Origin: Candidatus Saccharimonadota bacterium
Lineage (GTDB): Bacteria; Patescibacteriota; Saccharimonadia; Saccharimonadales; Saccharimonadaceae
Reading direction: 5' to 3'
Assembly (NCBI GenBank): GCA_015999875.1
Contig: JAECRG010000001.1
Location: 483,330-547,329 of the forward strand
DNA: 64,000 bases
Shown one piece after another: positions 24,892-63,995 of the stretch (its first letter is position 1; each line of letters starts with the position of its first letter). A program made the position numbers and the translations under genes. Under the pieces are notes generated by a model. The model was not told the DNA's origin and made no database searches. It was given only the letters and a program-made list of their open reading frames with translations.

Positions 24892-26799
24892 CTATTTCTT
24901 ATCTTTGTCGTCGACAACTTCACCTTCTACAGGCTCATCTTTGTCATCAACTTTTTTACCATCTTCAGAGGCAGGTGCATCCTCTTCTTTGGCAGCAGCT
25001 TCATACATCTTTGCACCGATAGGCATGATCTTGTCGTTGAGTGCTTTGGCAGCCGCCTCAAGTTCATCTTTGCCAGCATCGGCGTTTTCTTTGACCTTTT
25101 TAGCCTCTTCGACAGCTTCTTTAATAACCTTTACGTCGTCTTCAGAAATCTTGTCTTTGTACTCGTCCGGCATTTTTTCAGCCTGGTAAATAGAATTCTC
25201 GAGCGTATTACGAATATCAACAGCTTCACGTCGCTTCTTGTCTTCGTCAGCATGCAGCTCGGCTTCTTTCTGCGCCTTTTCAATATCTTCTTTGCTCATA
25301 TTGCCGCTATCTTGGATAGTGACAGAGTTTTCTTTACCGGTGCCTTTGTCTTTCGCAGTAACGTTCAAGATACCATTCGCATCAAGGCTAAATGTTACCT
25401 CTACTTGTGGCACACCACGCGGCGCTGGTGCGATACCGTCGAGAATAAAGCGTCCAAGTGATTTATTGTCACTGCTCATTTCGCGCTCACCCTGCAATAC
25501 ATGAATCTCTACTTGTGGCTGGTTGTCAGCAGCGGTAGAAAACGTCTCACTTTTGCTTGTAGGGATTGTGCTGTTACGTTCAATAAGCTTCGTAGTGACA
25601 CCGCCCATGGTCTCGATACCAAGACTAAGTGGCGTTACGTCGAGTAGAAGTACGTCTTTGACGTCACCTTGCAAAACTCCGCCCTGGATAGCTGCACCGA
25701 CGGCTACAACTTCGTCTGGGTTCACACCCTGAAGCGGGTCTTTACCGAAGATACCCTTGACCTTCTCGACAACAGCTGGCATACGGGTCATACCACCAAC
25801 AAGTACGATCTCATCGATCTCGCTCGCTTTCATATCAGCATCTTTGAGGGCTTTTTCGACAGGCTCCGCCAAACGATCAATCAAGTCCTTAACAAGCTCT
25901 TCGAGCTTAGCACGAGTCAATGTGTACTCGAAGTGTTTTGGACCATCAGCATCAGCTGTGATAAATGGTAGATTAACTTCGTACATATTGGTACTTGAGA
26001 GCTCTTTCTTGGCTTTCTCCGCCTCATCTTTGAGTCGTTGCATTGCGGCTTTGTCGTTTTTGAGGTTGACACCTTCTTCGTTTTTAAACACATCGATAAA
26101 GTGATTGACTATGCGGTTATCGAAATCTTCACCGCCTAGGTGCGTATCACCGTTGGTCGAACGAACTTCAAACACGCCATCGCCAAGCTCGAGTACCGAT
26201 ACATCAAATGTACCGCCACCGAGGTCGAAAACTGCAATCTTCTCATCTTTCTTGCCCTCGAGGCCGTATGCCAATGCTGCAGCTGTTGGCTCGTTGATAA
26301 TACGCTTAACCTCGAGACCGGCAATCTTGCCAGCATCTTTGGTGGCTTGCCTCTGCGAGTCATCGAAGTACGCAGGAACGGTAATAACCGCTTCGGTGAC
26401 TTTCTCGCCCAGGAACGCCTCTGCATCCGCTTTGATCTTCGAAAGAATCATCGCTGACACTTCTTCTGGCGTATAATCTTTACCTCCGAGTTTTACTGCT
26501 ACACCATCGCCTTTTTTGACGATTTCGTATGGCATGATGTCATGATCTTTTTGCACTTCGTCGTCGCCGAATTTACGGCCAATCAAACGCTTCACACCAT
26601 AGATAGTATCTTTTGCATTTGTGACGCGCTGACGCTGCGCAACTTGCCCAACCAGGCGATCACCTTTTTTGTTGATCGCTACAACGCTGGGTGTCGTGCG
26701 GTTACCCTCTGCGTTTGCAATTACTTCTGGCTTGCCTGCCACCATGTAGGCGAAGGCACTGTTTGTTGTACCGAGATCGATACCAATTATTTTTCCCAT
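24892..26799 (-). CDS. dnaK: Chaperone DnaK (Hsp70)
   Basis: A 635-residue full-length DnaK. It opens [19 protein letters not shown], has [38 protein letters not shown] and [19 protein letters not shown], and ends with an acidic tail ([18 protein letters not shown]). The Leu-rich linker joins the ATPase domain (to about residue 370) to the substrate-binding domain. It stands alone, while dnaJ and hrcA-grpE lie elsewhere in the window and share its CIRCE control. AAAGGA precedes the ATG and the leader is about 80 nt. Confidence 0.99.
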
Positions 26800-26897
26800 A
26801 TTCCTATTCCTTTCTTATCATCATTCAGTAGTTGTAAGGTCTGTATATATTTTAGCAGTCTATTGGGTAGATTGCCAATATCTCTATTATAAATAAA

Positions 26898-26924
26898 TTA
26901 GCACTCACATGTCAAGAGTGCTAA
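26898..26924 (-). promoter_or_regulatory. CIRCE operator and promoter of dnaK
   Basis: A perfect CIRCE: TTAGCACTC, 9 bp, GAGTGCTAA. The consensus -35 TTGACA of the minus-strand promoter lies across the spacer, followed after 18 bp by TATAAT just outside the operator. HrcA binding would block polymerase. Confidence 0.95.
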
Positions 26925-26997
26925 TTTATTTGTTCACCCCTGTTATGCACTCTCACGCTAACTAATATTGTGAACTACAGTATAATTAGTAGTAGCT

Positions 26998-27870
26998 ATG
27001 TTACGTACTATTGTTGCGATTTGTGTCAGCCTTGCCTTCAGCGTAAGCCCTCTTGCACATGCAGACAGCGCAACAGACGACAGCGAGCTGCAAGTTTCAT
27101 CATCTCGTCTCAATGTGTCTATAAAAGCAGGTGAATCCAGGAACATCGAGATTACCACGCGCAATAAATCGATACGACCTATGGAGGTGCATCTGCAGGT
27201 GCAGCAGTTCACCGTAGACAAGACGTCCCATGATATAACGTTTGAAAAGCCGCAATACAACTGGGTGCACGCGAGAGCCACTACCCTACACCTCGAGCCC
27301 AATCAAAGCAAGACAGCAGATTATCAAATAAAAGTCCCAGCAAATGCCGCCGAAAAAGAATACTACTACGCCCTCCTCGCTAGTACGTCCACCGGAAATA
27401 CTGCGGGGTCCAAAACAGTCCAGGTCGCCTCGTTGCTCTACTTGTATGTAGACGGCGGTAATGAAACGCACGCTAGCAGTGTAGTTGACAGCCAAATACC
27501 AATCATTTCTTTTGCAACGTCCATACCCTATGCATTTGCAATTCAAAACTCTGGTAACATTCACCTTCAGGCATCTTCATCTGCGCAACTTAGAGGCTGG
27601 ACTTGGGGTACTAGTGACGTACGCACAAATACTATCGTGCTACCTGAGCGCTCTCGCGATGTAAAAGGTGCATTTGCCGCGCCCTTCTCCCCAGGTATCT
27701 ACACGCTTATCTATGGCTACACCGACGAAGGAACTGGCAAATCAACCGTATTGTCCGCACCAATCATCTACATACCACTCTGGTCAATTGCCACTGTGGT
27801 TCTGTTGCTTCTAGCTGCACTTTGGCTGCGTCAGCGCTATCTCGGTCGACCCTCTAAGTCCGCCCGATAG
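26998..27870 (+). CDS. Surface-anchored DUF916-like beta-sandwich protein
   Basis: A 290-residue protein. A signal peptide ends near AHA-DS (residue 22). The Ig-like extracellular part includes SRLNVSIKAGESRNIEI and a second domain. A C-terminal membrane helix (IPLWSIATVVLLLLAALWL) and a basic tail follow. This layout (signal, two beta-domains, helix, short basic tail) is that of DUF916 proteins, which work with WxL-type cell-wall proteins in Gram-positives. TATAAT lies 11 nt before the ATG. Its end overlaps the converging gene at 27854 by 17 nt. Confidence 0.65.
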   Translation: MLRTIVAICVSLAFSVSPLAHADSATDDSELQVSSSRLNVSIKAGESRNIEITTRNKSIRPMEVHLQVQQFTVDKTSHDITFEKPQYNWVHARATTLHLEPNQSKTADYQIKVPANAAEKEYYYALLASTSTGNTAGSKTVQVASLLYLYVDGGNETHASSVVDSQIPIISFATSIPYAFAIQNSGNIHLQASSSAQLRGWTWGTSDVRTNTIVLPERSRDVKGAFAAPFSPGIYTLIYGYTDEGTGKSTVLSAPIIYIPLWSIATVVLLLLAALWLRQRYLGRPSKSAR

Positions 27871-28411
27871 CAGTATAGGTGACATCAACACTATAGGTGC
27901 CGGCACTTTTGGTGATATCGATCAATGCACCGTAAGTGACATTTGTTGGGGTGCCGCTCGTAAATGGACCAGTACCGGAATTAATAAGAGCTTGAGTGGT
28001 GGTCATTCCTTTAAAGTTTGTTGTGGAGCCCGTAGTATTATAACCCCAGCTGTTTACACTGAGCGCAGCAAGGGTAGCATTGGCACTTGCAGGTATAGTG
28101 TGTGCGCCGTTACTCATTGCAGTACCCGCAGTTGTATTCACGTATAAATCATAGCCCACTACATCAGTTGATGTTACCGTTACAGTATGTGAGCCAGTGC
28201 CACTAAACGTGCCTCCACTTGGTGTTAGCGGCACGTCTGCAACGTTACTTAGGGCGATCGAAAGGCTTGTCTCTGAGCCAAACGGCACGTCTTCACCAAA
28301 TAGCCCCACACCAAATGGCTGAGCCAGGGCAACCTGCTGCAGCCCCAAGCAGACGAGTACCGTAAATGACGCAGCAGCGAGATGAAAAGTGGTGATACGA
28401 GGTGACTTCAT
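27854..28411 (-). CDS. Secreted Thr/Ser-rich beta protein
   Basis: A 185-residue protein. A signal peptide (about residues 1-30, ending VALAQ) is followed by a beta-rich, Thr/Ser/Asn/Gly-rich domain with no Cys. It ends in ITKSAGTYSVDVTYTAIGRT, a strand pattern common at the end of WxL and other Gram-positive surface domains. It converges on and overlaps the DUF916-like gene by 17 nt. A partner role to that protein is suggested by this pairing and is inference. Confidence 0.65.
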   Translation of the reverse strand: MKSPRITTFHLAAASFTVLVCLGLQQVALAQPFGVGLFGEDVPFGSETSLSIALSNVADVPLTPSGGTFSGTGSHTVTVTSTDVVGYDLYVNTTAGTAMSNGAHTIPASANATLAALSVNSWGYNTTGSTTNFKGMTTTQALINSGTGPFTSGTPTNVTYGALIDITKSAGTYSVDVTYTAIGRT

Positions 28412-28482
28412 ACCCCAAGTATAGCAAACGTATGCATCTCATTGGTTGTGTTGATGCTTACGGTTTTGTATACTACCTGGAG

Positions 28483-28701
28483 ATGAATGGGGGTAAATTA
28501 GTGAGGTCACTTGATGACATCATGCGACAAGAGCTAACACGTGCCGAGTTTCTTAAACTCGTAGGCATTGCTGCTATTAGCGCGTTTGGTGTTACCGGCC
28601 TACTAGCTAATCTTTCAGAACGTACATACATCGTAAAGAAATCAACACCCGGACAACGTATTGCGCAACGCGGTTTTGGTACAAGAAAATTTGGCGAATA
28701 G
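28483..28701 (+). CDS. Small single-helix membrane protein, paralogue of the 63786 protein
   Basis: A 72-residue protein read from the ATG at 28483. The upstream promoter TTGTGT, 17 bp, TATACT ends 8 nt before it. It carries TRAEFLKLVGIAAISAFGV followed by the rest of one helix, then a polar tail with QRIAQRGFGTRKFGE. The protein at 63786-63995 has the matching DRSEFLRFSIVAIVAVTGIG segment, so they form a small family. The acidic-hydrophobic EFL start before the helix recalls Tat-like leader regions but lacks twin Arg. Function unknown. Confidence 0.55.
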   Translation: MNGGKLVRSLDDIMRQELTRAEFLKLVGIAAISAFGVTGLLANLSERTYIVKKSTPGQRIAQRGFGTRKFGE

Positions 28702-28790
28702 CCGTCTCCAAGAGACGTACGTTCACTACGTTATTTTTGCCCAAAATGCTATACTGTAAGAGCATATGCTATATATAAGCAGCGTCATCT

Positions 28791-28836
28791 ACGCTACTAA
28801 CTCCGTAGCGTTTCTTCCTCCTAGGGTAGAAGGAGG
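28791..28836 (+). promoter_or_regulatory. Two leader hairpins, the second hiding the ribosome-binding site
   Basis: In the leader of the 28846 gene (a -10-like TATACT lies at 28750-28755) the first hairpin pairs ACGCTAC (28791-28797) with GTAGCGT (28805-28811). The second pairs CCTCCT (28817-28822) with AGGAGG (28831-28836), which is the Shine-Dalgarno sequence of the gene. Opening the second hairpin should be required for translation. Confidence 0.55.
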
Positions 28837-28845
28837 CTATTGCTA

Positions 28846-31080
28846 ATGTACGATCAACGCCTTCCGATAGTCGACGATGACGATGGTATCTGGGGAGATA
28901 TTCTTCGTAAATATCTACAAAAAGAGCATTACGACACAGGAACAGATGACCCAGATAACGGCGGCCACAAGAATGTCACCATTCGAGCCGGTGGGGATGG
29001 TGCTGGTGGCGCACCTCTGAAGTTCGCTTCCGGGACCTTGCTCACGACACCTCAGATTGGCGCAATGGAGTTTGTAGGAGATAATCTCTACATCACTCAG
29101 ACTTCTGGCACAGTACGCAAGAAAGTCGCACTCTACGATGACGCAAGTGGTGCGACAGGAGATATTTATTACCGAAACGCCACCGGCTCTTTCACACGGC
29201 TTGCTGCCGGCACAGCGAGCCAAATCCTTACTCTCATGGGATCACCGGCCCTGCCTACCTGGCAGACCCTTACCGCATACACCTCGGGTGGAACAGATGT
29301 ACCAGTAGCCGATGGAGGCACTGGACGATCTACCTCGACAACCGCATATGGCATTATTGCAGCAGGCACCACCGCGACAGGTGCGCACCAGACAATTTCT
29401 CCAGGCACATCCGGACAATTTCTGAAGTCCGCCGGCGCATCAGCCTTAGCGGCGTTTGCAAACATTACAGCAGCAGACATAACCGGCACCACAGCACAGT
29501 TCAATACAGCGCTCAGCGATAATGACTTTGCGACACTCGCCGGTACAGAAACATTATCAGGCAAAACCCTGACCGCTCCACGCTTTACTTCGGGCGGTTT
29601 GATAGCCGACAACAACGGAAACGAACAAATCGTATTCACTACTACCACCTCAGCTGTCAATGAAGTTGGTATCACAAATGCGGCAACAGGCACTGCGCCA
29701 CAGATTTCAGCTCGCGGGAGTGACACAAACGTCAACCTGAATTTGACATCCAAAGGCACGGGCAGAGTCCAAGCAAATGGGGTTAATATACCCACGACTA
29801 CCTCGACAGATACTTTAACAAATAAGACAATCGACGGCGCAAACAACACTATTTCCAATATTCCATGGAGTGGAGTTTCCGGTAAGCCTGCCGTCATAGC
29901 AGCAGGTGCAACAATCAATGACGCACTAAATGCCGTTAACCTTACCCCAATTATCGGAGGAGCAAGTTCGGCGGATGGTCGCATACTCGGCGCCTACGCA
30001 CGCAATGCACTCTACAGCCATCCGGAATCAGACGCATTTGTGCCAATTCCACATGCATACAATGACATTGCCTACAACAATATTCGCGGAGGCTCCGTAA
30101 CTATTCGACTCAACGGGACTGTGGTCGCGGCAAATGGCAACAATGCGCCCGAGGTATTCACACCGGATGCAACCTATAGTTTTGCGGACATCTATACATC
30201 TACAAACGACACTATCACTCTCGAAATCACCCTCCATCGCACATTTTATTTCGCTTCTCGCTTTGGTATTCAGCAAACCGATTGGTGTCGCGCGCAAAAT
30301 GTTAAATTCGAGGCATATGTAGGCACCACATGGACGACATTGCTCGACAAAACCAATGAAACTACCGGCCTAACCTGGGGAAGTACCGACAGTGGTGGTA
30401 CCGGTGCCACAAGGCTGCGTGTGACACTGACGAATTTTACAGTTCCCGGGTCAACCGGCATTCGCATTACTCAAATATTCATGATTGGCTTTGACTCAAC
30501 TTTACTTTCGGGCACTTTCTTACCCCGTGGCGGAGGCCAGCTATACGGAGATATACAAGCACCAGCGATCAGGACAAACTTGCTGCGTGACGCAAACAAC
30601 AACGGCATCCTCGAACTCTACGGCAACACCTCGGCGGCTAACTATCTGCAGATACAAAACCGCGCCACAGGCACTGGTCCAGGTATATACGCACAGGGAG
30701 CTGACGCAAATATTGATATCGACCTAATACCAAAAGGAACTGGGGCTGTAAAAATTAACGGCGCGCCACTTCCGACAGCATCAAGCACACAGACTCTAAC
30801 CAATAAAACAATTGATGCCACAAACAACACTATCACCAACTTACCCACAACGAGTCTTGCCGACAGTTCAGTCACGAGTGCAAAAATAGCCGATGGGACG
30901 ATAGTTAACGCGGATGTCAACGCCGCAGCGGCAATTGCGCTATCGAAGCTCGCAACCGGATACGTACAAGCTTCCGTCAACGGTACGCCTACGACTACAG
31001 GTATCTGGAGGGGTACTCAGGCTCAGTACGATGCGATCGTGACCAAAGATACTAACACTTTATACTTTATTGCGGGGTAG
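28846..31080 (+). CDS. Phage tail-fibre-like surface protein
   Basis: A 744-residue protein. An N-terminal module (VDDDDGIWGDILRKYLQKEH) is shared with the protein at 45335-47707. Long beta-rich repeats follow, including a tandem tail-fibre unit: TDTLTNKTIDGANNTISN near residue 325 and TQTLTNKTIDATNNTITN near residue 650. The end, IVTKDTNTLYFIAG, is also typical of phage receptor-binding proteins. No other phage structural, terminase or integrase gene is near. A host-contact or surface-fibre role is inferred for this cell type. The ATG at 28846 has AGGAGG 9 nt upstream. Confidence 0.75.
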   Translation: MYDQRLPIVDDDDGIWGDILRKYLQKEHYDTGTDDPDNGGHKNVTIRAGGDGAGGAPLKFASGTLLTTPQIGAMEFVGDNLYITQTSGTVRKKVALYDDASGATGDIYYRNATGSFTRLAAGTASQILTLMGSPALPTWQTLTAYTSGGTDVPVADGGTGRSTSTTAYGIIAAGTTATGAHQTISPGTSGQFLKSAGASALAAFANITAADITGTTAQFNTALSDNDFATLAGTETLSGKTLTAPRFTSGGLIADNNGNEQIVFTTTTSAVNEVGITNAATGTAPQISARGSDTNVNLNLTSKGTGRVQANGVNIPTTTSTDTLTNKTIDGANNTISNIPWSGVSGKPAVIAAGATINDALNAVNLTPIIGGASSADGRILGAYARNALYSHPESDAFVPIPHAYNDIAYNNIRGGSVTIRLNGTVVAANGNNAPEVFTPDATYSFADIYTSTNDTITLEITLHRTFYFASRFGIQQTDWCRAQNVKFEAYVGTTWTTLLDKTNETTGLTWGSTDSGGTGATRLRVTLTNFTVPGSTGIRITQIFMIGFDSTLLSGTFLPRGGGQLYGDIQAPAIRTNLLRDANNNGILELYGNTSAANYLQIQNRATGTGPGIYAQGADANIDIDLIPKGTGAVKINGAPLPTASSTQTLTNKTIDATNNTITNLPTTSLADSSVTSAKIADGTIVNADVNAAAAIALSKLATGYVQASVNGTPTTTGIWRGTQAQYDAIVTKDTNTLYFIAG

Positions 31081-31085
31081 CAAGC

Positions 31086-31754
31086 ATGTCTCTCAAACTC
31101 GGATCGACTGACATCTCAGCCTTAAGTCCAGGAGCAATCAGATTAGGCGCAAACTCACTTGATCGAGTATACGATGGAACGCAGCTCGTATGGGAGCGGG
31201 GCTTCAAATACACTCACAGCTTCACCACCCTTACAAACTTCACACAGACATCTTCAGGCTCGGGCGTAGGAGTTGCAAGTGGCATTGCACGATGGAATGG
31301 CACTACCGATGGTCAAGCAATCCTCAAATATAACTCGCAGGCTCGCACGACGAACCAGTACGGCTCCGTCGTCATCGCAAACGCTAGTGGCAACGCCGTC
31401 GGTATCATACTCCACTGCGATGCAGGCAATACCGGCTACTATGCATGCGCCATCCTCAATTCTCGAGTCAGTCTCTTTCGGACATCAGGTCGATGGAATC
31501 AGAATGCCTACACGACAATAACGTTTACAAACACGACAGTAAGCGCCAATAGCCTTGTTGAATTTTGGAATATACAGGATAGATTTTTTATCGCAGTTAA
31601 TGGTGTCATTCAAGTTGATTTTACTATACCCAGCCCAGTTATCGACTCCTCTCATTTATATCAAGGTTTCGGGATGTTCCGCGCGACGTTCGTCAATTCA
31701 GCGAGTATATCTCAATGGAACGGTGGTGATGCTGGAGCCTGGGGTAAGATCTAA
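31086..31754 (+). CDS. Tail-fibre-associated protein with concanavalin-like fold
   Basis: A 222-residue protein. Its N-terminus, MSLKLGSTDISALSPGA followed by RLGANSLDRVYDGTQLVW, is the short repeat module seen in many phage tail proteins. The rest is a beta-rich domain resembling LamG/concanavalin-type modules (LIVEFWNIQDRFFIAVNGV-like strands). It begins 5 nt after the large fibre-like gene, so they are co-translated and their products probably assemble together. Confidence 0.65.
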   Translation: MSLKLGSTDISALSPGAIRLGANSLDRVYDGTQLVWERGFKYTHSFTTLTNFTQTSSGSGVGVASGIARWNGTTDGQAILKYNSQARTTNQYGSVVIANASGNAVGIILHCDAGNTGYYACAILNSRVSLFRTSGRWNQNAYTTITFTNTTVSANSLVEFWNIQDRFFIAVNGVIQVDFTIPSPVIDSSHLYQGFGMFRATFVNSASISQWNGGDAGAWGKI

Positions 31755-31845
31755 ATACGTTACATATCAGTCTCCACTGTCTCTATTGCCCAATTGATCT
31801 CCATCTCATTAGCAGGGCCACGAGAAATATATGACGGTCACTTTG

Positions 31846-31874
31846 TTTGTGTATTTGGCTGCGACATACACAAA
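31846..31874. terminator. Hairpin after the fibre-like genes
   Basis: TTTGTGTAT (31846-31854) and ATACACAAA (31866-31874) are complementary across an 11-nt loop. It may end the 28846-31754 transcript. A promoter TTACAC, 16 bp, TATGAT for the next gene lies just beyond it. Confidence 0.45.
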
Positions 31875-31936
31875 TAGTTGCATTACACACCATGAATGTA
31901 TTATTATGATAGCCATAAGAGGAATATAAAATCCGT

Positions 31937-33373
31937 ATGCTCAAAACAAAAAACCTCAAACAACTATTCACACCACAGACCCTATTTCTAGCGGGACTCG
32001 TTGCGACTCTTGGCCTTTCGCTTTTTGCGCTCAGTTTAGAAACTCGCGCCGAGAGTACTGTCGGCACATATACCGATAACGCTGGCGGTCAACAAAATAT
32101 GCGTATTACAAAAGCCGACGGCGAGCGACGACCAGCAATCGTCTTTGTCCATGGTGGTGGCTGGGCGACAGATGGTGGAACTTTCGGACCGGATTTTCAA
32201 AATCGAGCCGCCAAATGGGGTTATACATCGTTTCGTATCAATTACCGCTTGATGCCCGGTGGTGTCTACGAACAATTACAGGATGTGATGCGTGCGGTCA
32301 AACATGTTCGTGATAACGCAGACCAATACAACATCGACCCGAATCGCGTCGCCATATGGGGTGACTCTGCAGGAGGAAGCTTGACTGCTCGAGCTGCCGC
32401 CTCAGGCAAATCTGGCGCTGCTGCAGCAGTCGGCTGGTCAGCGCCTACAAACGCATTCCGTGATATGTTCAACTCTGCTCCAGGGTTTATAGATGGCCTG
32501 TTTCATACTCGATGCTTCGGAGAGTACTTACCTCCATTTACTATGGATGCGATTAACTTCTTCAACGGTAATCGTAGTGTCCTAGAAAGACTTGCGAGTG
32601 GCGCACCGCTTTCGCAAGACCAAAGTGCCCGACTGCTCAGTGAATCCTTGCAACTTGGCGGTTTAGTGCTCGAACAGCTTCCTGCCACCGCAGGAAAACT
32701 TCAAAAAGCAGCGAATGATTTTGGCGTAACTATCAATGACGAAGCCCTTGCTGGCAATAGTGTGAAAGCTCCTACCCCTACAATCTCCGAGGGCGAAGTA
32801 AAGCAGAAGCTGACGACACTGACCGCTGAGGATCTCGAGAAGATCGGTACGGCTATCTACGAATTTGAACGAGCTACTAGTAATCTATCTGGCGATGCAG
32901 AAAAAACAGCAGCAACAATCAGCCTTATCAAACTTGGTCTCAACCAACTATCTGACATTCAGGGTAAGATTGTTCAAGAAAAAGCTGCTGCAGGCACGCC
33001 TACTGACACAACAGATACTCCAGGCCTCACTCCACCTACCAACTCGCCCCTTATCAACAACGGCAGCAATGGTGGCCTCGTCGGCATAAACCCTCAGCAG
33101 ATTTCTGCTTCCAAGATTGCACAGTGTATTGATGATTTCGTTGAATTGTCACCGGCACTCTTCGCCAGTCCTCGTACGCCGCCTATGTTCCTTGCTGTAG
33201 CCGCAAACGAAGAACTCGTCAACGCACAAGATGCATACCAGATGCGTGATAAGCTGCGAAGTATGGGTATTCGTTCAGAAGCTCTTGTACTCTCAGGCAA
33301 TCGACATATGGGTTATGATGAGCGTGCCGAGGTCCCCTCTTTCCAATTCTTAAACAGTATTCTCAGGCCATAG
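31937..33373 (+). CDS. Secreted or anchored alpha/beta hydrolase with a large insert
   Basis: A 478-residue protein. The N-terminal hydrophobic signal/anchor (about residues 13-37) is followed by an esterase-lipase fold with the oxyanion motif VFVHGGGWA (72-76) and nucleophile elbow WGDSAGGSL (Ser144). The catalytic His is in NRHMGYDE near the end. About 180 residues between the two halves (around 200-385) are helical, then Pro/Thr-rich, and do not belong to the usual fold. They may form a lid or a surface-binding segment. It probably cleaves ester bonds outside the cell. The substrate is unknown. Confidence 0.8.
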   Translation: MLKTKNLKQLFTPQTLFLAGLVATLGLSLFALSLETRAESTVGTYTDNAGGQQNMRITKADGERRPAIVFVHGGGWATDGGTFGPDFQNRAAKWGYTSFRINYRLMPGGVYEQLQDVMRAVKHVRDNADQYNIDPNRVAIWGDSAGGSLTARAAASGKSGAAAAVGWSAPTNAFRDMFNSAPGFIDGLFHTRCFGEYLPPFTMDAINFFNGNRSVLERLASGAPLSQDQSARLLSESLQLGGLVLEQLPATAGKLQKAANDFGVTINDEALAGNSVKAPTPTISEGEVKQKLTTLTAEDLEKIGTAIYEFERATSNLSGDAEKTAATISLIKLGLNQLSDIQGKIVQEKAAAGTPTDTTDTPGLTPPTNSPLINNGSNGGLVGINPQQISASKIAQCIDDFVELSPALFASPRTPPMFLAVAANEELVNAQDAYQMRDKLRSMGIRSEALVLSGNRHMGYDERAEVPSFQFLNSILRP

Positions 33374-33382
33374 GCTACTACA

Positions 33383-33418
33383 TAAATAAAAACCCGGGGA
33401 TCCCCGGGTTTTTATTTA
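33383..33418. terminator. Perfectly symmetric bidirectional terminator
   Basis: A 36-bp perfect palindrome with a GC core (ACCCGGGGATCCCCGGGT) flanked by A-run and T-run. It ends the hydrolase gene on the plus strand and hrcA-grpE on the minus strand. Confidence 0.92.
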
Positions 33419-33443
33419 CTACAGATTTAGCCTCGGCAATTGG

Positions 33444-33929
33444 CTACTTTCTAGTTACCTTCACCATAGCCGGGCGAATTGGCGCACCCCCAAGTGTATA
33501 ACCCGCCTGCAGTTCTTCGGCAATTACTTCTTTGTCTCCTGCCGCTTCTTCATCAAACTGAATCGCCTCATGCAATGATGGATCAAACTCCACACCGGGT
33601 GCGGCCTTGATACGAACTACGTCGAGCCCTCCAAGCGCCTTTTCTAGGCTCTTGGGTAGTTTAGCTACGCCATCTACCCATTTATTGCCCGCGAGCTCTT
33701 CTGGAGTGTGACCGACGGCCCTATCGATGGTATCTATTACAGGCAGCAACTTAAGGACTGCGGATGACTGACCGTTGGCTCGTGCAGTAGCTTTTTCCGC
33801 TTCAACTCGTTTACGATAATTTTCAAAATCAGCTCGTGTTCGCTGCAAATCTGCCGTTAGCTCTGCGACCTGTTGCTGCGCGTCAGTATCTTGTTGAATC
33901 TCTTCTGAATCTTGAGGTTGTTTGGTCAT
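33444..33929 (-). CDS. grpE: Nucleotide exchange factor GrpE
   Basis: A 161-residue GrpE: a long N-terminal coiled coil (LTADLQRTRADFENYRKR), then LPVIDTIDRAVGH and the C-terminal beta-domain with GVEFDPSLHEAIQFDEE and LQAGYTLGGAPIRPAMVKV. It releases ADP from DnaK. AAGGAG lies before the ATG, and it follows hrcA by 18 nt in a two-gene unit. Confidence 0.95.
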   Translation of the reverse strand: MTKQPQDSEEIQQDTDAQQQVAELTADLQRTRADFENYRKRVEAEKATARANGQSSAVLKLLPVIDTIDRAVGHTPEELAGNKWVDGVAKLPKSLEKALGGLDVVRIKAAPGVEFDPSLHEAIQFDEEAAGDKEVIAEELQAGYTLGGAPIRPAMVKVTRK

Positions 33930-33947
33930 GTATATTCTCCTTCTTGT

Positions 33948-34658
33948 CTACAATGTCTCTTCAAGCATCGTTGCCGTCTGGCTTACGAGGCGTATTACTC
34001 GCGCATAGCTTTGGCGTGTCGAACCAAGCACACCGATATAACTTGCGTCACTATACGGTGAACGGAAACGACTAATCACAAGACTCGCACCGCTCGCCTT
34101 GCCTATCGGGTTCTCTTCGCCTATATATACGCTAAGCGCCTCTGTCGGTGCGGCTTCGCGTAGCCATGGCTCGAGGTTGTCGAGCAAACGTGCGACCGCC
34201 TGTGGCGCCGCACCACCATTCATGAACTCCGGCTGACTAAAGAGATGTCCAATACCGCTCATATAAAGCTGTCCATCAATTGTAGCAATACCCAAATTCT
34301 GCGTCAGCTCCACTAGATTGTCTACTGCGCTGCGAATCACCTGATCTGTCCGATCGCTGCTATTTACCCGAGCCTCTATAACCCTAGTACTGCGATCTGA
34401 TGCCGGCAGTTGTGGTACATAGGTCTGTTCGGTAATCTGATTTACATAAAAACGATAGCCTTTATCGGTAGGGATGCGTCCAGCACTGGTATGAGGCTGG
34501 GTAATAAGCCCCATCTGCTCTAGGCGCGCCATTTCGCTTCGCACGGTAGCGCTCGACACATTAAAAAGCTTGGCGAGCGTTACACTACCCACCGGCACAG
34601 CAATCTCAGCATATTGCTCTACGATTGCGATAAGTATCTGTAGTTGCCGTTCCGTCAT
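33948..34658 (-). CDS. hrcA: Heat-shock repressor HrcA
   Basis: A 236-residue protein read from MTERQLQILIAIVEQY. The N-terminal winged helix contains TLAKLFNVSSATVRSEMARL and EQMGLITQPHTSAGRIPTDKGYRFYV, which are diagnostic of HrcA. A GAF-like effector domain follows. HrcA binds CIRCE, and three CIRCE elements lie in this window (before hrcA itself, dnaJ and dnaK). A TTGATT-N17-TATACT promoter ends 6 nt before the ATG, so the transcript should be leaderless and self-repressed. Confidence 0.95.
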   Translation of the reverse strand: MTERQLQILIAIVEQYAEIAVPVGSVTLAKLFNVSSATVRSEMARLEQMGLITQPHTSAGRIPTDKGYRFYVNQITEQTYVPQLPASDRSTRVIEARVNSSDRTDQVIRSAVDNLVELTQNLGIATIDGQLYMSGIGHLFSQPEFMNGGAAPQAVARLLDNLEPWLREAAPTEALSVYIGEENPIGKASGASLVISRFRSPYSDASYIGVLGSTRQSYARVIRLVSQTATMLEETL

Positions 34659-34678
34659 AGTACTAGTATAGCAAGTTT

Positions 34679-34705
34679 CTGGCACTCAATCAAATAGAGT
34701 GCTAG
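34679..34705 (-). promoter_or_regulatory. CIRCE operator and promoter of hrcA-grpE
   Basis: CTAGCACTC, 9 bp, GAGTGCCAG on the minus strand, a CIRCE with two substitutions in the second arm and one in the first. The -35 TTGATT (34693-34688) lies across the spacer, and the -10 TATACT is at 34670-34665. The operator also overlaps the last codons of the guanylate-kinase-like gene. Confidence 0.88.
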
Positions 34706-35421
34706 CGTATTCCCGCGCGAATATCTGCGAGTAAGTCTGTCGCTACCTGGCGTGCATCCTCGTCATGGAGATTAAATTCATCAGGCTTATGAGCAATCTC
34801 ATCGATAACGCGAACAGCTCGTTCAAGATCATCGTTAATGATGAAGTGATAATACGGCGCTGCAAGCGCATGCTCTAGCTCATCAATCGTAATGTCGCGA
34901 CGCTCTTGCCATTCCTCGTCAAATACATCTTCCGAAGTATAGCGCTGCCGCAAACGACTTCGCCACGTATCATAATCTGGTGGCACAATAAAGAGCGCCG
35001 TTACCGATTCTGGCGCAATCTTTCGAAACGATGCGATCCCGTTGACATCGATATCGGTTAATGCAATCTGATTCTCTCTCTGTGCTGTGATGAATTCGTC
35101 AATATGCGCTCCGTAGAAATTACTGCCAAACTTATTAATCTCGATCATCTCTCGATCATCAATTCGGCGTTTCATTTCTTCCATTGACAAAAAATGATAG
35201 TCAAAACCGTCAGTTTCAAGTACTCCATCATTGATTCGAAGTGGTCGAGTAGTACATGTAACAACTCGTCGATAGCCATCTAACTTCTCAAGCTTACCAA
35301 TAACAGTATCTTTACCGGCAGCAACAATACCGACGAACAAGACAATCCTTGATTTTGCTAGCGTTTCGGCCGTATTCGCCCCTGGAGTGTAATTTTGTAT
35401 AAGCTCTTCGATATTTTCCAT
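34702..35421 (-). CDS. gmk: Guanylate-kinase-like protein
   Basis: A 239-residue protein read from the ATG at 35421, placed just after the lepA stop with GAGGGA upstream. TTRPLRINDGVLETDGFDYH and MIEINKFGSNFYGAHIDEF match the GMP-binding part of guanylate kinases (TRxPR, GxxYG). The P-loop is unusual: FVGIVAAGKDTVIGKLEKL, with Asp where Ser is normal and a widened loop. The C-terminal part is longer than in typical Gmk. It should convert GMP to GDP if active. A divergent nucleotide kinase role is possible. Confidence 0.7.
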   Translation of the reverse strand: MENIEELIQNYTPGANTAETLAKSRIVLFVGIVAAGKDTVIGKLEKLDGYRRVVTCTTRPLRINDGVLETDGFDYHFLSMEEMKRRIDDREMIEINKFGSNFYGAHIDEFITAQRENQIALTDIDVNGIASFRKIAPESVTALFIVPPDYDTWRSRLRQRYTSEDVFDEEWQERRDITIDELEHALAAPYYHFIINDDLERAVRVIDEIAHKPDEFNLHDEDARQVATDLLADIRAGIR

Positions 35422-35422
35422 A

Positions 35423-37201
35423 TTAGTCCCTCTTAAGCATAACTGTAAACGCTTCACTTGGTATATCTACTTTACCAAATCTTTTCAGTCGTTTCTTGCC
35501 TTTTGCTTGTTTGGCGAGTACTTTTTTCTTGCGGCTTACGTCTCCGCCATACAGACCCGTCGTCACATCTTTGCGATATGCACTCAAGTCTTCGCGTGCG
35601 ATAAATCGGCCACCAATAGCAGCCTGCAGACTCACCTGGAAGTTTTGGCGTGGAATCACCTCTTTGAGCTTCTTTACTACCACGCGACCAAGCGCATCTG
35701 CCTCGCTACGATGCGCCATCACACTCAATGCACCCACCATCTCACCAGCCACATAGAAATCAACTCGTACCAGATCCTCTGCGCGGTACTCGTCAAGTTC
35801 ATAATTAAAACTACCGTAGCCGCTTGTCACGCTTTTAAGTTGATCATAGAAATCTGTCAATAGATTTGCAAGTGGTGCTTCGAAACTGATAAGTGCCCGC
35901 TCATCGATATAGCTTAGATTCTTTTGCTGCCCACGCTTACTTACGATCAATTGTATAACAGCACCTATGTACTCCTGTGGCACAACAATTTCGCCCTTGA
36001 TCCAAGGCTCTCTGATCTCGACTATTTTAGTCACATTTGGCAAGTCGCTTGCGGATTTAATATCAAGCTCTTCGCCGGTCGTAATACTTACCTGATAATC
36101 TGTCGACGGGTTTGTTACCACTAGATCGAGATTGTATTCTCGTTCAAGCCTTTCGCGGATAATGTCCATGTGCAGCAAACCAAGAAACCCTATGCGCACA
36201 CCGAAGCCGAGCACTGGCGAGTTTTCTGGTTCAAACTGTAGGGCACTGTCACTTAAGCTCAGTTTTTCGACAGCATCTTTGAGATCATTGTAATCTTCGT
36301 TGCTCATCGGAAAAAAGCCTGCATACACAAACGGTTTCACGTGCTTATAGCCTGGTAGCATTTCCTCTGCACGACTTCGCTTAACCGTGACGGTATCACC
36401 CACGCGCGCATCCCGAGTCGTCTTGAGGTTGGTGACGATGTAGCCAATTTCTCCAGTAGTCATTTCATCGTTTGGTTTCATGGTTGGATTCAGTGATCCC
36501 ACCTCTAGCGCGATGCCACTGGCACCCGTCGCGAGCATTTCGATGGTGTCGCCTTTTTTAATTGAGCCGTCCACGACACGTGTATACAAGATGACACCCC
36601 TGTAGTCATCGTAATAACTATCAAAGATAAGTGCTCGAGTTGGAGAATCCTTGGTGCCTTGAGGTGGAGTAATCCTCTCCACAATCGCCTCTAGTACATC
36701 AGGTACGCCCTCACCTGTCTTCGCGCTGATCTTTAAGATATCAGCCTCGTCACACCCAAGCAAATTGATCACTTCTTTAGTGACACGCGGTACGTCCGCA
36801 GCAGGTAAGTCAACCTTGTTGAGAACTGGTATAATTGTCAGGTCAGCCTCAAGCGCAAGATACACATTTGCGAGAGTTTGTGCCTGAATACCTTGCGAGG
36901 CGTCAACTACTAATATCGCTCCCTCACATGCTTCCAGCGAGCGGCTTACTTCATAGCTAAAATCAACATGGCCTGGTGTATCTATAAGATTAAGATCATG
37001 CCCCTTGTACTGCATACGTACCGGCGCAAGCTTGATCGTAATACCTTTTTCACGCTCCAAATCCATACTGTCGAGTAGCTGGCTTTTCATGTCGCGTTTT
37101 TCTACAGTGCTAGTCATTTCCATCATGCGATCAGCAAGAGTCGACTTGCCGTGATCAATATGAGCAATGATGCAAAAGTTTCGTATGTGTGACTGATCCA
37201 T
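35423..37201 (-). CDS. lepA: Elongation factor 4 (LepA)
   Basis: A 592-residue GTPase. G1 is IAHIDHGKSTLADRM, G3 LIDTPGHVDF and G4 VLNKVDLPAA. The LepA-specific C-terminal domain includes DVSRKKKVLAKQAKGKKRLK and ends in EAFTVMLKRD. LepA acts on ribosomes, promoting back-translocation or subunit assembly. It is followed by the gmk-like gene, whose ATG starts 2 nt after the lepA stop. Confidence 0.97.
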   Translation of the reverse strand: MDQSHIRNFCIIAHIDHGKSTLADRMMEMTSTVEKRDMKSQLLDSMDLEREKGITIKLAPVRMQYKGHDLNLIDTPGHVDFSYEVSRSLEACEGAILVVDASQGIQAQTLANVYLALEADLTIIPVLNKVDLPAADVPRVTKEVINLLGCDEADILKISAKTGEGVPDVLEAIVERITPPQGTKDSPTRALIFDSYYDDYRGVILYTRVVDGSIKKGDTIEMLATGASGIALEVGSLNPTMKPNDEMTTGEIGYIVTNLKTTRDARVGDTVTVKRSRAEEMLPGYKHVKPFVYAGFFPMSNEDYNDLKDAVEKLSLSDSALQFEPENSPVLGFGVRIGFLGLLHMDIIRERLEREYNLDLVVTNPSTDYQVSITTGEELDIKSASDLPNVTKIVEIREPWIKGEIVVPQEYIGAVIQLIVSKRGQQKNLSYIDERALISFEAPLANLLTDFYDQLKSVTSGYGSFNYELDEYRAEDLVRVDFYVAGEMVGALSVMAHRSEADALGRVVVKKLKEVIPRQNFQVSLQAAIGGRFIAREDLSAYRKDVTTGLYGGDVSRKKKVLAKQAKGKKRLKRFGKVDIPSEAFTVMLKRD

Positions 37202-45334: not shown

Positions 45335-47707
45335 CTACGATGTGACGGTGCGCAGCGGTCGTACCACAAGATAATCAAACTCAGCACCCGCATCCCAAGT
45401 ACCCACACCAAAGCCCGAACCTGATTTTGTCGCCTCCCAAGTTCCTATTGGTATCCATGCAGCTGGCGCATCGTTAAACGAATAGTACCCGGTCACACGA
45501 TTTCCTTGTTTTTTCAGCGCGACACGTACCCATATGTTCGTCAGGTCCCTACCCCCACCGACAAACGTGACAAACGGCGTACTAAAATCATCTCGCAAGG
45601 TAAGCTTCCAGCTGCGCTGGTGGTCGCGACGAAGCTGAATATGCACTGCGGAACCAAAATACGGATCAGGCGTAGCGCCGAGCATGATAAGCGAGACTTC
45701 TTGATCATCATGAGTCGCATCTGTCACGCGAAACCTTGTCTCGGTCCAATAGTCAGTAGGTAACGATACATTTTTGCGAGCTGCACGCGTATCTTGGTGA
45801 GCTCCTCCACTTCCGTACGGTACGGCAAACGTAGAACCTGTAGCTACAAGCTGCGTACGACTTCCCTCTTGATTCCAGTCTGCAGCATTGAGTGTACCCG
45901 CAGCCTGATTCATCTGGTCGTCTACAACAGGGGTTGCACCAGCGTCCACAGCAGTATAGTTTGGCGTGACTGGCGTGTTGGACCATACGCCCACATATCC
46001 GGCAAAATTAATAGTCGGCGAGACAATACTACCCTGATATGGCTGCCCGACATTTACCACCACTCTCAAATGCGAATTGTAGAAAATTGGATCATCGACA
46101 AAAAATCGATACATCGTTTGATTCGCGCCAGGCTGGTCTGAGTTTCCCGCACGCCCCGCGGGATAACCCCCCACGGGCATCGCGTACCATCCACCGTTAA
46201 ACGCATCTTCCATACCAGACGATGACCATGACGGATACAGCTCATTATCGACATAAATATCGACATTGCCCTCAAGCACCCCTAGATCTCCAGCGTCCTC
46301 TCCAGAGAAGCTCACTACAAGTGACTCGATCTGACCTGCGCCATTGAAATCACAGATAGTCATCGGTGTTTGCGCAGCCTGATTCGTCACACGTTGGCCT
46401 TTGATGCCATAGGCAAGCTGCTGTGAACCTAAATCACTAAAAGAGTTCAACGTAGAGTAATCTGCCGTGCCATAAAACAGCGTGTCGGTGGCAATTGTAC
46501 TTTCCACCTCTACGCGAAGGTATTTCTGAAACGGCATGTGAAGATAGCGATAAGCGGATCCGCCAGAACCGCGATCGGCTCGTCCGACGCGCGGCGTCGA
46601 GAATACATCCGAACGATTTGCGAGACAGAAGAAATCACCAAGCGACATAGACACGGCTGGCACCGTAGAATTATCGGTATAAATGCGAATCGTGCCACCC
46701 TGCTCCAGAAAACCTGCGCTCGTGGCCGAATTGTCACATGCCACCCAAATATGCTTGAGTACGCCTGGTTTGTCCCAAGATTCTGCGAGCACCACGATCT
46801 TGTGTCCTGCCGGGTCGGAGGCATTCGCCCGCGCCACAGCGACCTCTTGTGGCGCAACGATGGCCATTTCTCCAGGTTTTCGTAGCGGAAAACCAGATTG
46901 TGTCGCCGAACCAGATGACGGTGCGGCGGTCTGAAGTGCTGTATCGGCCTTAGCAAGTGATGCCTGCACGTCAGCAGCAAGCTGTGTCTTTGCAATCGCC
47001 GCCGTCGCCGAGATATCTGTAGTAGTGATCGTCGCATCGGCAATCTTCGCACTGGTAATTACACCATTTGCTACTACCGGAAGTGCCGACGTTCCCGCCA
47101 AATCTCCTGCCAGTTGTACGATACCTTTCGCACCCGTCGTAGCATCAGTCGGGATAGTTGGCCGATTTGATAAATCTGCATAAGAACCAGAAGTTGCAAC
47201 AGTCGACAACGTCGAAGCGGTAGCCTTAGTGTTGAGCGCTGTCTGCGTCGCAGTCGAGATTGGCTTGTTGGCATCGGACGTGTCATCGACATTGGTCAAA
47301 CCGACAGCCGCTTTATTGAGCGTTTGCCATGATTTGTCCCCTCTATAGTACTGGCTACTCGTACCTGCTATTATAGAGGCCTCTTTGCCCGCAAGTCCCG
47401 GAACAGTTGGCGCTTCAGCTGTGCCACCCAAATCACCAGTGAGCCTGAGCTTGCCTTTTGTGGTCGCGTCCGCGTCCTGCACCGTACCTGTCGTATTAAG
47501 TTTCGTACGAACTGCCGCATCAAACAGCACTTCAGTAATACTTCCATCGGCTATTGTTGCCGCGCTTACGGCATTATCGGCAAGCGCGCTGTTCGTCACG
47601 CTATTATTCTTCAGCGTCCCATCATTTTTGTGAATCTGAGACAAATAATCATTGAGGATCTCTCCCCAGTCTCCATCATCTCCACCCGGCTGCGGAAGTC
47701 GTGCCAT
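45335..47707 (-). CDS. Large surface protein: tail-fibre-like N-terminus, DUF2961-like and LamG-like domains
   Basis: A 790-residue protein. The N-terminal module MARLPQPGGDDGDWGEILND is shared in pattern with the 28846 protein. Fibre-like repeats follow (ALADNAVSAATIADGSITE; LTNVDDTSDANKP; DATTGAKGIVQLAGDLAGT) to about residue 270. A central DUF2961-like region spans roughly 280-590 (VLKHIWVACDNSATS, TIRIYTDNS, LRVEVES). The end is a concanavalin-like domain (about 630-780). No signal peptide is visible. It may be a secreted carbohydrate-binding fibre, the transport route being unknown. Confidence 0.7.
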   Translation of the reverse strand: MARLPQPGGDDGDWGEILNDYLSQIHKNDGTLKNNSVTNSALADNAVSAATIADGSITEVLFDAAVRTKLNTTGTVQDADATTKGKLRLTGDLGGTAEAPTVPGLAGKEASIIAGTSSQYYRGDKSWQTLNKAAVGLTNVDDTSDANKPISTATQTALNTKATASTLSTVATSGSYADLSNRPTIPTDATTGAKGIVQLAGDLAGTSALPVVANGVITSAKIADATITTTDISATAAIAKTQLAADVQASLAKADTALQTAAPSSGSATQSGFPLRKPGEMAIVAPQEVAVARANASDPAGHKIVVLAESWDKPGVLKHIWVACDNSATSAGFLEQGGTIRIYTDNSTVPAVSMSLGDFFCLANRSDVFSTPRVGRADRGSGGSAYRYLHMPFQKYLRVEVESTIATDTLFYGTADYSTLNSFSDLGSQQLAYGIKGQRVTNQAAQTPMTICDFNGAGQIESLVVSFSGEDAGDLGVLEGNVDIYVDNELYPSWSSSGMEDAFNGGWYAMPVGGYPAGRAGNSDQPGANQTMYRFFVDDPIFYNSHLRVVVNVGQPYQGSIVSPTINFAGYVGVWSNTPVTPNYTAVDAGATPVVDDQMNQAAGTLNAADWNQEGSRTQLVATGSTFAVPYGSGGAHQDTRAARKNVSLPTDYWTETRFRVTDATHDDQEVSLIMLGATPDPYFGSAVHIQLRRDHQRSWKLTLRDDFSTPFVTFVGGGRDLTNIWVRVALKKQGNRVTGYYSFNDAPAAWIPIGTWEATKSGSGFGVGTWDAGAEFDYLVVRPLRTVTS

Positions 47708-63702: not shown

Positions 63703-63789
63703 CTAGTTATCATTTTTTTGTGGCAAAACGAGTCGTGCAATAAGTACTGCGAGAAATGCACACGCAATAATCAAGATGAAATATCTCAT
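63703..63789 (-). CDS. 28-residue single-helix membrane peptide
   Basis: A tiny frame beginning with ATG overlapping the stop of the 63786-63995 gene (ATGA) and ending at TAG 63703-63705. It reads MRYFILIIACAFLAVLIARL then VLPQKNDN, one membrane helix with a short polar end. Coupled to the 69-residue membrane protein, it may be its partner. It could also be chance, given its length. Confidence 0.4.
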   Translation of the reverse strand: MRYFILIIACAFLAVLIARLVLPQKNDN

Positions 63790-63995
63790 TGATCGTTTTT
63801 AGCGCCGCCATATGGCATACTGCCGTAGCCGTTTGCAACCGTCTGTGAGCTTTGGCGTGAACCAACAACATTAAACGTACGAAGCAATGTGCCGATACCC
63901 GTGACGGCAACGATAGCAACTATCGAAAACCGTAAGAACTCTGAACGATCCATTTCCTTGTTGAGTACTGTACTAATACCTTGTTTGATTGCCAT
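63786..63995 (-). CDS. Small membrane protein, paralogue of the 28483 protein
   Basis: A 69-residue protein: MAIKQGISTVLNKEMDRSEF, a helix (LRFSIVAIVAVTGIGTLL) and a Gly/Ser-rich tail with NGYGSMPYGG. The DRSEFL-helix block matches the TRAEFL-helix block of the 28483 protein. The start is near the window edge, so a longer upstream part or promoter cannot be seen. Confidence 0.55.
   Translation of the reverse strand: MAIKQGISTVLNKEMDRSEFLRFSIVAIVAVTGIGTLLRTFNVVGSRQSSQTVANGYGSMPYGGAKNDQ

Follow-up and report, generated by a model that had tools for sequence, protein, structure and literature searches.

In the window analysed here (the whole 64,000-nucleotide stretch of a Candidatus Saccharimonadota genome), two large proteins start with the same N-terminal module of about 34 residues, which also opens phage tailspike-like proteins and which, in the genomes compared, is nearly always accompanied by TatC. 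We consider it probable that this module is a phage-type docking handle of fibre proteins, and that a small carrier with a YG motif at its C-terminus takes the fibres through the Tat translocase as hitchhikers. This reading is built from homology, the N-terminal position of the module, its co-occurrence with Tat, gene order, gene fusions and the adjacency of YG motifs to phage module genes. The features concerned are listed in Table 1.

Table 1. Features of the window and its right flank (positions are those of the window; those marked C3 lie just past its right edge)
Feature	Position	Strand	Description
Carrier 1	28402..28701	+	TRAEFLK signal, membrane helix, tail GFGTRKFGE; directly upstream of fibre protein 2
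Fibre protein 2	28846..31080	+	744 aa from ATG; module, fibre repeats, C-terminal Phage_tail_C
Fibre protein 2, module	28846..28953	+	subtype QRLPIV..WGDILRxYL.KEHY; profile E 6e-11
Virion-structural-like protein	31086..31754	+	phrog_2804; signal-less, directly after fibre protein 2
Fibre protein 1	45335..47707	-	790 aa; module, DUF5907 shaft repeats, GH172 (DUF2961), beta-rich C-terminus
GH172/DUF2961 domain of fibre protein 1	46043..46693	-	residues 339-555; E 4e-32
Fibre protein 1, module	47606..47707	-	residues 1-34, MARLPQPGGDDGDWGEILNDYLSQIHKNDGTLKN; matched by the profile
Carrier 2	63786..63995	-	DRSEFLR, membrane helix, tail GYGSMPYGG; last gene of the tat operon
tatC	C3:547394-548545		same tat operon as carrier 2
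tatA	C3:548481-548675		same tat operon as carrier 2

The original prediction joined the two fibre proteins by a shared N-terminal pattern of about 20 residues. The pattern is real, but it is longer than that, with the consensus M[AST]RLPxPGxDxGxWGxxLNxxLxxxHxxDGTLK over about 34 residues and with two subtypes (MARLPxPG.. and QRLPIVNSDDG..WGDILRQYLxKEHY). In a pairwise BLAST comparison the two N-termini alone were weakly alike (E 0.029). A profile made of 22 modules from other genomes, neither window protein included, was then run over the window in six frames and matched fibre protein 1 at E 5.2e-21 and fibre protein 2 at E 6.2e-11, the next match having an E of 1.2; a profile made exclusively of phage modules matched both proteins as well (1e-13 and 1.4e-4). 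As profiles built without either protein recover exactly these two, their N-terminal similarity is above chance. Consensus-like sequences (one of the five seeds of alignment A8 and one 34-aa query) and a lightly altered module (one row of alignment A3) served solely as search seeds.

The module is N-terminal in all matched ORFs (n = 144, duplicates counted), and neither clearly cytosolic proteins headed by it nor randomly internal copies, both named beforehand as arguments against an export or assembly tag, were found among them; four seemingly non-N-terminal modules were rejected, as they came from alternative start codons or an over-extended upstream ORF. In the AlphaFold model of the fibre protein 1 module, residues 14-22 form a short helix (mean pLDDT 85), and a Foldseek search of the module model against the PDB gave no match. 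For the 83 module proteins encoded on named contigs, the domains recognised by Pfam were pectate-lyase/beta-helix, GDSL esterase, DUF5907, BppL_N, collagen, DUF2961, Phage_depo_C and similar ones, and the PHROG annotations were chiefly tail fibre, tailspike and minor tail protein. Identification of the module with BppL_N was set aside on the basis of the module proteins scanned singly, which gave no Pfam match at the module; the eight BppL_N matches were counted over module proteins as wholes. The plasmid matches and most of the GenBank phage matches obtained with a longer query were also discarded, as they reflect the DUF5907 repeat and do not involve the module.

Both ORFs lie where the original prediction had placed them; the 1.04 Mb genome, however, holds four module proteins and not two, the others being encoded at C3:152604(-) and C3:257061(+). 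By inspection, neither window protein has a hydrophobic, signal-like N-terminus, as had been claimed, and since a signal peptide is absent, module proteins would be called cytoplasmic. Across Saccharibacteria genomes the family is dispersed, with up to 20 genes per genome and intact ORFs. The same module starts tailspike-like proteins in IMG/VR siphophage contigs and the Streptomyces phage proteins BRock gp186 and LuckySocke gp41, where tailspike-type domains follow it, so that the window fibre proteins have an N-terminal attachment module in common with phage tail genes.

The occurrence of the module and its companion domains in phage tailspikes might mean that the fibre genes belong to prophages or phage remnants, without a bacterial function of their own, which we regard as very unlikely. 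The Pfam-named genes around the fibre genes in the window are housekeeping ones (grpE, hrcA, gmk, lepA, murJ, ftsH, and tilS), and the tape-measure family PF10145, the sole tail-, portal- or terminase-type family tested, was found in two of 245 genomes, none of them module-bearing, and was absent from the genome of the window. Given these neighbours and the absence of the tape-measure family from module genomes, the module genes of Saccharibacteria do not look like prophage genes, and the window fibre genes are not part of a phage structural cluster as judged by the tape-measure gene and the neighbours checked. Unlike the genes of phage tail fibres, they are spread across a bacterial chromosome with no tail genes, in step with Tat; dispersed, multi-copy, intact genes are not what the prophage explanation predicts, and remnants would not follow TatC inside genera.

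Two further observations concern the distribution of the module. At two loci (L007:4786-6826 and L008:8832-9575) a module protein is followed by signal-less genes of beta-helix-like, PKD-type and alpha/beta-hydrolase products; these may be partner subunits carried by the module protein. The module was also seen on high-GC (0.60-0.64) contigs filed as Actinobacteria, i.e., L117 (Microbacterium sp. MYb62), L129 (Mycolicibacterium agri), and L080 and L123 (Gordonia), with carrier-like and YG sequences on L117 and L129 too; possible sources are horizontal transfer, plasmids and assemblies that include epibiont DNA.

Linkage to the Tat system was assessed in 245 genomes of the class, which were searched for TatC, the module, the carrier and TrbL. 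Module and TatC were found together in 65 genomes, the module alone in one, TatC alone in four and neither in 175 (Fisher p 2.7e-53, a measure of correlation only, the genomes not being independent of one another). For carrier and TatC the corresponding counts were 65, 0 (carrier only), 4 (TatC only) and 176, and for module and carrier 63, 3 (module only), 2 (carrier only) and 177. Exceptions were G071, with the module but no TatC found, G170 and G154, with module and TatC but no carrier detected, and G027, G268, and G285, with TatC and without the module. In each of eight genera (g1, g8, g16, g18, g28, g60, g62, and g81) species with both module and TatC stand beside species with neither, so the pattern is more than shared ancestry. 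TatC was likewise present in each of the eight module genomes found beyond the sample, of which two do not belong to the class; the translocase is thus present wherever its supposed passenger is in 65 of 66 module genomes of the sample and in 8/8 outside it.

It had been proposed that the module is an export or assembly tag on surface-type proteins, with TrbL/VirB6-like machinery as the secretion route. The tag itself is supported, being always N-terminal, accompanied by tailspike and fibre domains, and tracking a translocase; the route is not. TrbL-like genes are present in the genome of the window, and export by a T4SS of the TrbL/VirB6 type could be imagined on that ground, but TrbL occurs in 21 of the 66 module genomes as against 93 of the 179 genomes without the module (both 21, module only 45, TrbL only 93, neither 86; phi -0.18, mildly negative). 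This machine does not go with its supposed substrate here, Tat tracks the module instead, and we give the T4SS route next to no credence.

Among the recurrent neighbours of module genes are tatC, in 11 loci, and a gene for a small protein between tatC and the fibre gene. In this carrier (about 65-100 aa) a Tat-type signal [STD]R(K/Q/R)xFL precedes a membrane helix, and the C-terminus has the motif [YF]Gxxx[YF]G; the order tatA-tatC-carrier-fibre is seen in operons (e.g., L128 and L112/L157). Of the 84 carriers, 52 are found no more than 3 kb from TatC (expectation about 0.7% for each), and at least 21 have a module gene 3-203 nt downstream, a lower bound because the module list used in that count was partial. 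The signal motif has the form R[K/Q]xFL in 16 of 23 carriers and RR in 4 of 23, and one carrier matched the Tat-signal model TIGR01409 above the cut-off. Hence, a partner with a Tat signal, mostly R[K/Q]xFL and not RR, is encoded with a signal-less passenger, as in hitchhiker export.

Alternatively, the carrier may be a TatB-like subunit of the translocase, the fibres reaching Tat in another way, perhaps by direct binding of the module to TatC. The carrier gene does belong to the tat operon, and the carriers are matched at 26-61 bits by NF038009 (TatB_1, 'twin-arginine translocation system-associated protein'), the two window carriers at 26 and 54 bits and one of them nearly over its full length. 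Every one of these matches is, however, below the curated cut-off of 100 bits, so that the window carriers are not assigned to the family, and extra carrier copies adjoin fibre genes away from tatC. The [STD]RxxFL signal at the carrier N-terminus, moreover, behaves like a signal peptide, since three genomes have it joined to large passengers.

In these genomes (G262, G186, and G295) the carrier signal is joined to a larger passenger, which is beta-helix-like in two of them, a label read from the sequence, as Pfam gave no match. G262, which has TatC and lacks the module, encodes two such proteins with the carrier signal region fused directly to them, and one is homologous (E 2e-37) to the signal-less beta-helix-like protein L007:5798-6826, whose gene directly follows that of a module protein in the genome of the window; a comparable fusion is present in G186 (E 6e-18). 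Passengers of one kind are thus linked in some cases to a Tat signal and in others to a module partner. The fusion of G295 (L151:1832-2833, 333 aa) combines a carrier-type signal with a different domain without a Pfam match, resembling a GH16-type domain by eye. Together, the fusions and the signal motif favour a putative Tat-exported docking carrier over TatB.

The carrier tail has a counterpart in phages. On the siphophage contigs L043 and L058 the module tailspike gene is immediately followed by a gene whose product starts MPSVYAVGPYGSSLYG.. or MPSLYGSGPYGLGLYG.., with the spacing of the carrier tails, and on L043 the tape measure gene lies directly upstream of the module gene. In 26 phage contigs a terminal [YF]Gxxx[YF]G was present in 14 of 46 immediate same-strand neighbours of module genes versus 1 of 369 other ORFs (p 8e-14; 0.35 on average for shuffled termini), a count that is not fully independent, because the idea came from two of the counted contigs and the motif from the carriers. 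Four contigs examined later had a YG neighbour in two cases (L180 and L185). The exact terminal motif was absent from the immediate neighbours in 12 of the 26 contigs, and it was not found near the module gene of the Streptomyces phages BRock and LuckySocke. Since the phage YG proteins tested mostly lack a PHROG name, calling them tail proteins relies on gene order. A YG tail common to the carriers and to proteins encoded beside phage tailspikes, where TatB is not needed, is a further argument against the TatB explanation, which we judge rather unlikely.

Other genes with YG-type or surface-type sequences were noticed near these loci. Divergent from many tat operons is a gene for a small protein with the motif S.YG[AT]G.Y, followed by an LPxTG-like site and a membrane helix (L147:3761-4030, i.e., C3:548761-549030, outside the window; also L078, L084, L100, L110, L163, L164, and L166); a strict pattern recovered it in about ten of 30 TatC loci, and it may offer another YG peptide, held at the surface. 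A surface-type cassette with WxLIP-like and 'SPFGQGxFGxDVPFG' sequences repeatedly adjoins carrier or tat genes in several genomes (window 26998-28411, L153, L163, and L100). In many Saccharibacteria the tat-carrier-fibre genes, or a fibre gene alone, are located between lepA/gmk and hrcA-grpE-dnaK (L078, L084, L112, and L139), and the carrier-fibre pair of the window is in the same neighbourhood (24892-37201).

According to the hitchhiker model, which takes module and YG peptide for a docking pair of phage tails reused by Saccharibacteria, the signal-less fibre or tailspike would fold in the cytoplasm, where its module would bind the [YF]Gxxx[YF]G peptide, borne by the product of the neighbouring tail gene in phages and by the carrier C-terminus in Saccharibacteria. 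The carrier would bring the folded fibre through TatA/TatC and, if its signal remained uncleaved, would stay as a membrane anchor displaying the fibre. A large number of dispersed fibre genes could then depend on one or a few carriers, and the enzymes on display would probably act on the envelope of the host Actinobacteria. A variant in which the carrier merely anchors, the fibres leaving by lysis or an unknown route and being caught by the YG tails afterwards, deserves mention, as lysis is the usual exit of phage fibres and a further YG protein, LPxTG-like at its C-terminus, is divergently encoded at many tat loci. It leaves unexplained both the close tracking of TatC and the module and the direct fusions of a Tat signal to the same passenger type, and it is in our opinion improbable. 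More tentatively than the hitchhiker model itself, and with somewhat less than even confidence, we suggest a general display system, in which a phage docking pair placed on a Tat-signal mini-protein would export and hold any folded fibre with the 34-residue tag, which outside the cell may be passed on to the LPxTG-like YG protein.

Fibre protein 1 carries the GH172 domain. The original prediction had assigned fibre repeats and a DUF2961-like domain to separate proteins, but phage-type DUF5907 repeats and DUF2961 (PF11175, 112 bits against a gathering score of 27) both occur in this one, and Pfam gave no support for a LamG-like domain at its C-terminus. The full-length AlphaFold model was unusable (mean pLDDT 42, four sequences in the alignment). 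PDB relatives of its GH172 domain are 7v1v and 8ic8 (exo-alpha-D-arabinofuranosidase); E479, E500, and D501 are invariant in four orthologues and align with the catalytic Glu270/Glu291 region of 7v1v, i.e., the two catalytic glutamates of GH172 are retained. Judging from the biochemistry of the family, the domain would cleave D-arabinan. In 121 relatives six GH172 loci were found: the four close orthologues whose N-terminus is intact (fibre protein 1 included) start with the module, and the remaining two are an orthologue without an intact start and a protein of a different type.

These orthologues recall MycGH172 of Ca. Mycosynbacter amalyticus, a Gordonia epibiont. This enzyme cleaves mycobacterial arabinogalactan, its ~67 kDa subunits form a trimer, and it was predicted to remain unsecreted (PMC10115798). 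Fibre protein 1 keeps the domain and the catalytic glutamates of the GH172 family, to which MycGH172 belongs. Orthologues of 622-633 aa start with the module, and three orthologues have 66.2-67.5 kDa, which fits the ~67 kDa subunit without an exact match; on this ground of size MycGH172 may carry the module. Its publication as a non-secreted protein counts against Tat export, whereas the module and its linkage to Tat suggest surface delivery.

Tat hitchhiker export is an established mechanism, and in E. coli PaoABC (PMC4273604) likewise one partner has a Tat signal and another has none. Compared with PaoABC, the putative tag here would be a generic short docking sequence on many unrelated passengers, and the carrier would be a mini-protein and not an enzyme subunit. 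Tat has been reported in some Saccharibacteria with no role in fibre export assigned (PMC6031116, PMC9166423), and no description of a link between Tat and fibres was found in the literature searched, the coverage of which was incomplete.

The proposed system bears on how ultrasmall epibionts recognise and attack their hosts; it would give Tat in Saccharibacteria a specific candidate job and make the module family a set of candidate host-recognition and wall-degrading proteins. It also offers a possible reason why the arabinan-cleaving enzyme of an epibiont was predicted to be non-secreted. If the docking pair binds, it would also provide a short, portable tag with which folded proteins could be exported by Tat, as well as a candidate code for the attachment of some phage tailspikes, and if the general display system is true, Tat in Saccharibacteria would exist largely for host-attacking fibres.
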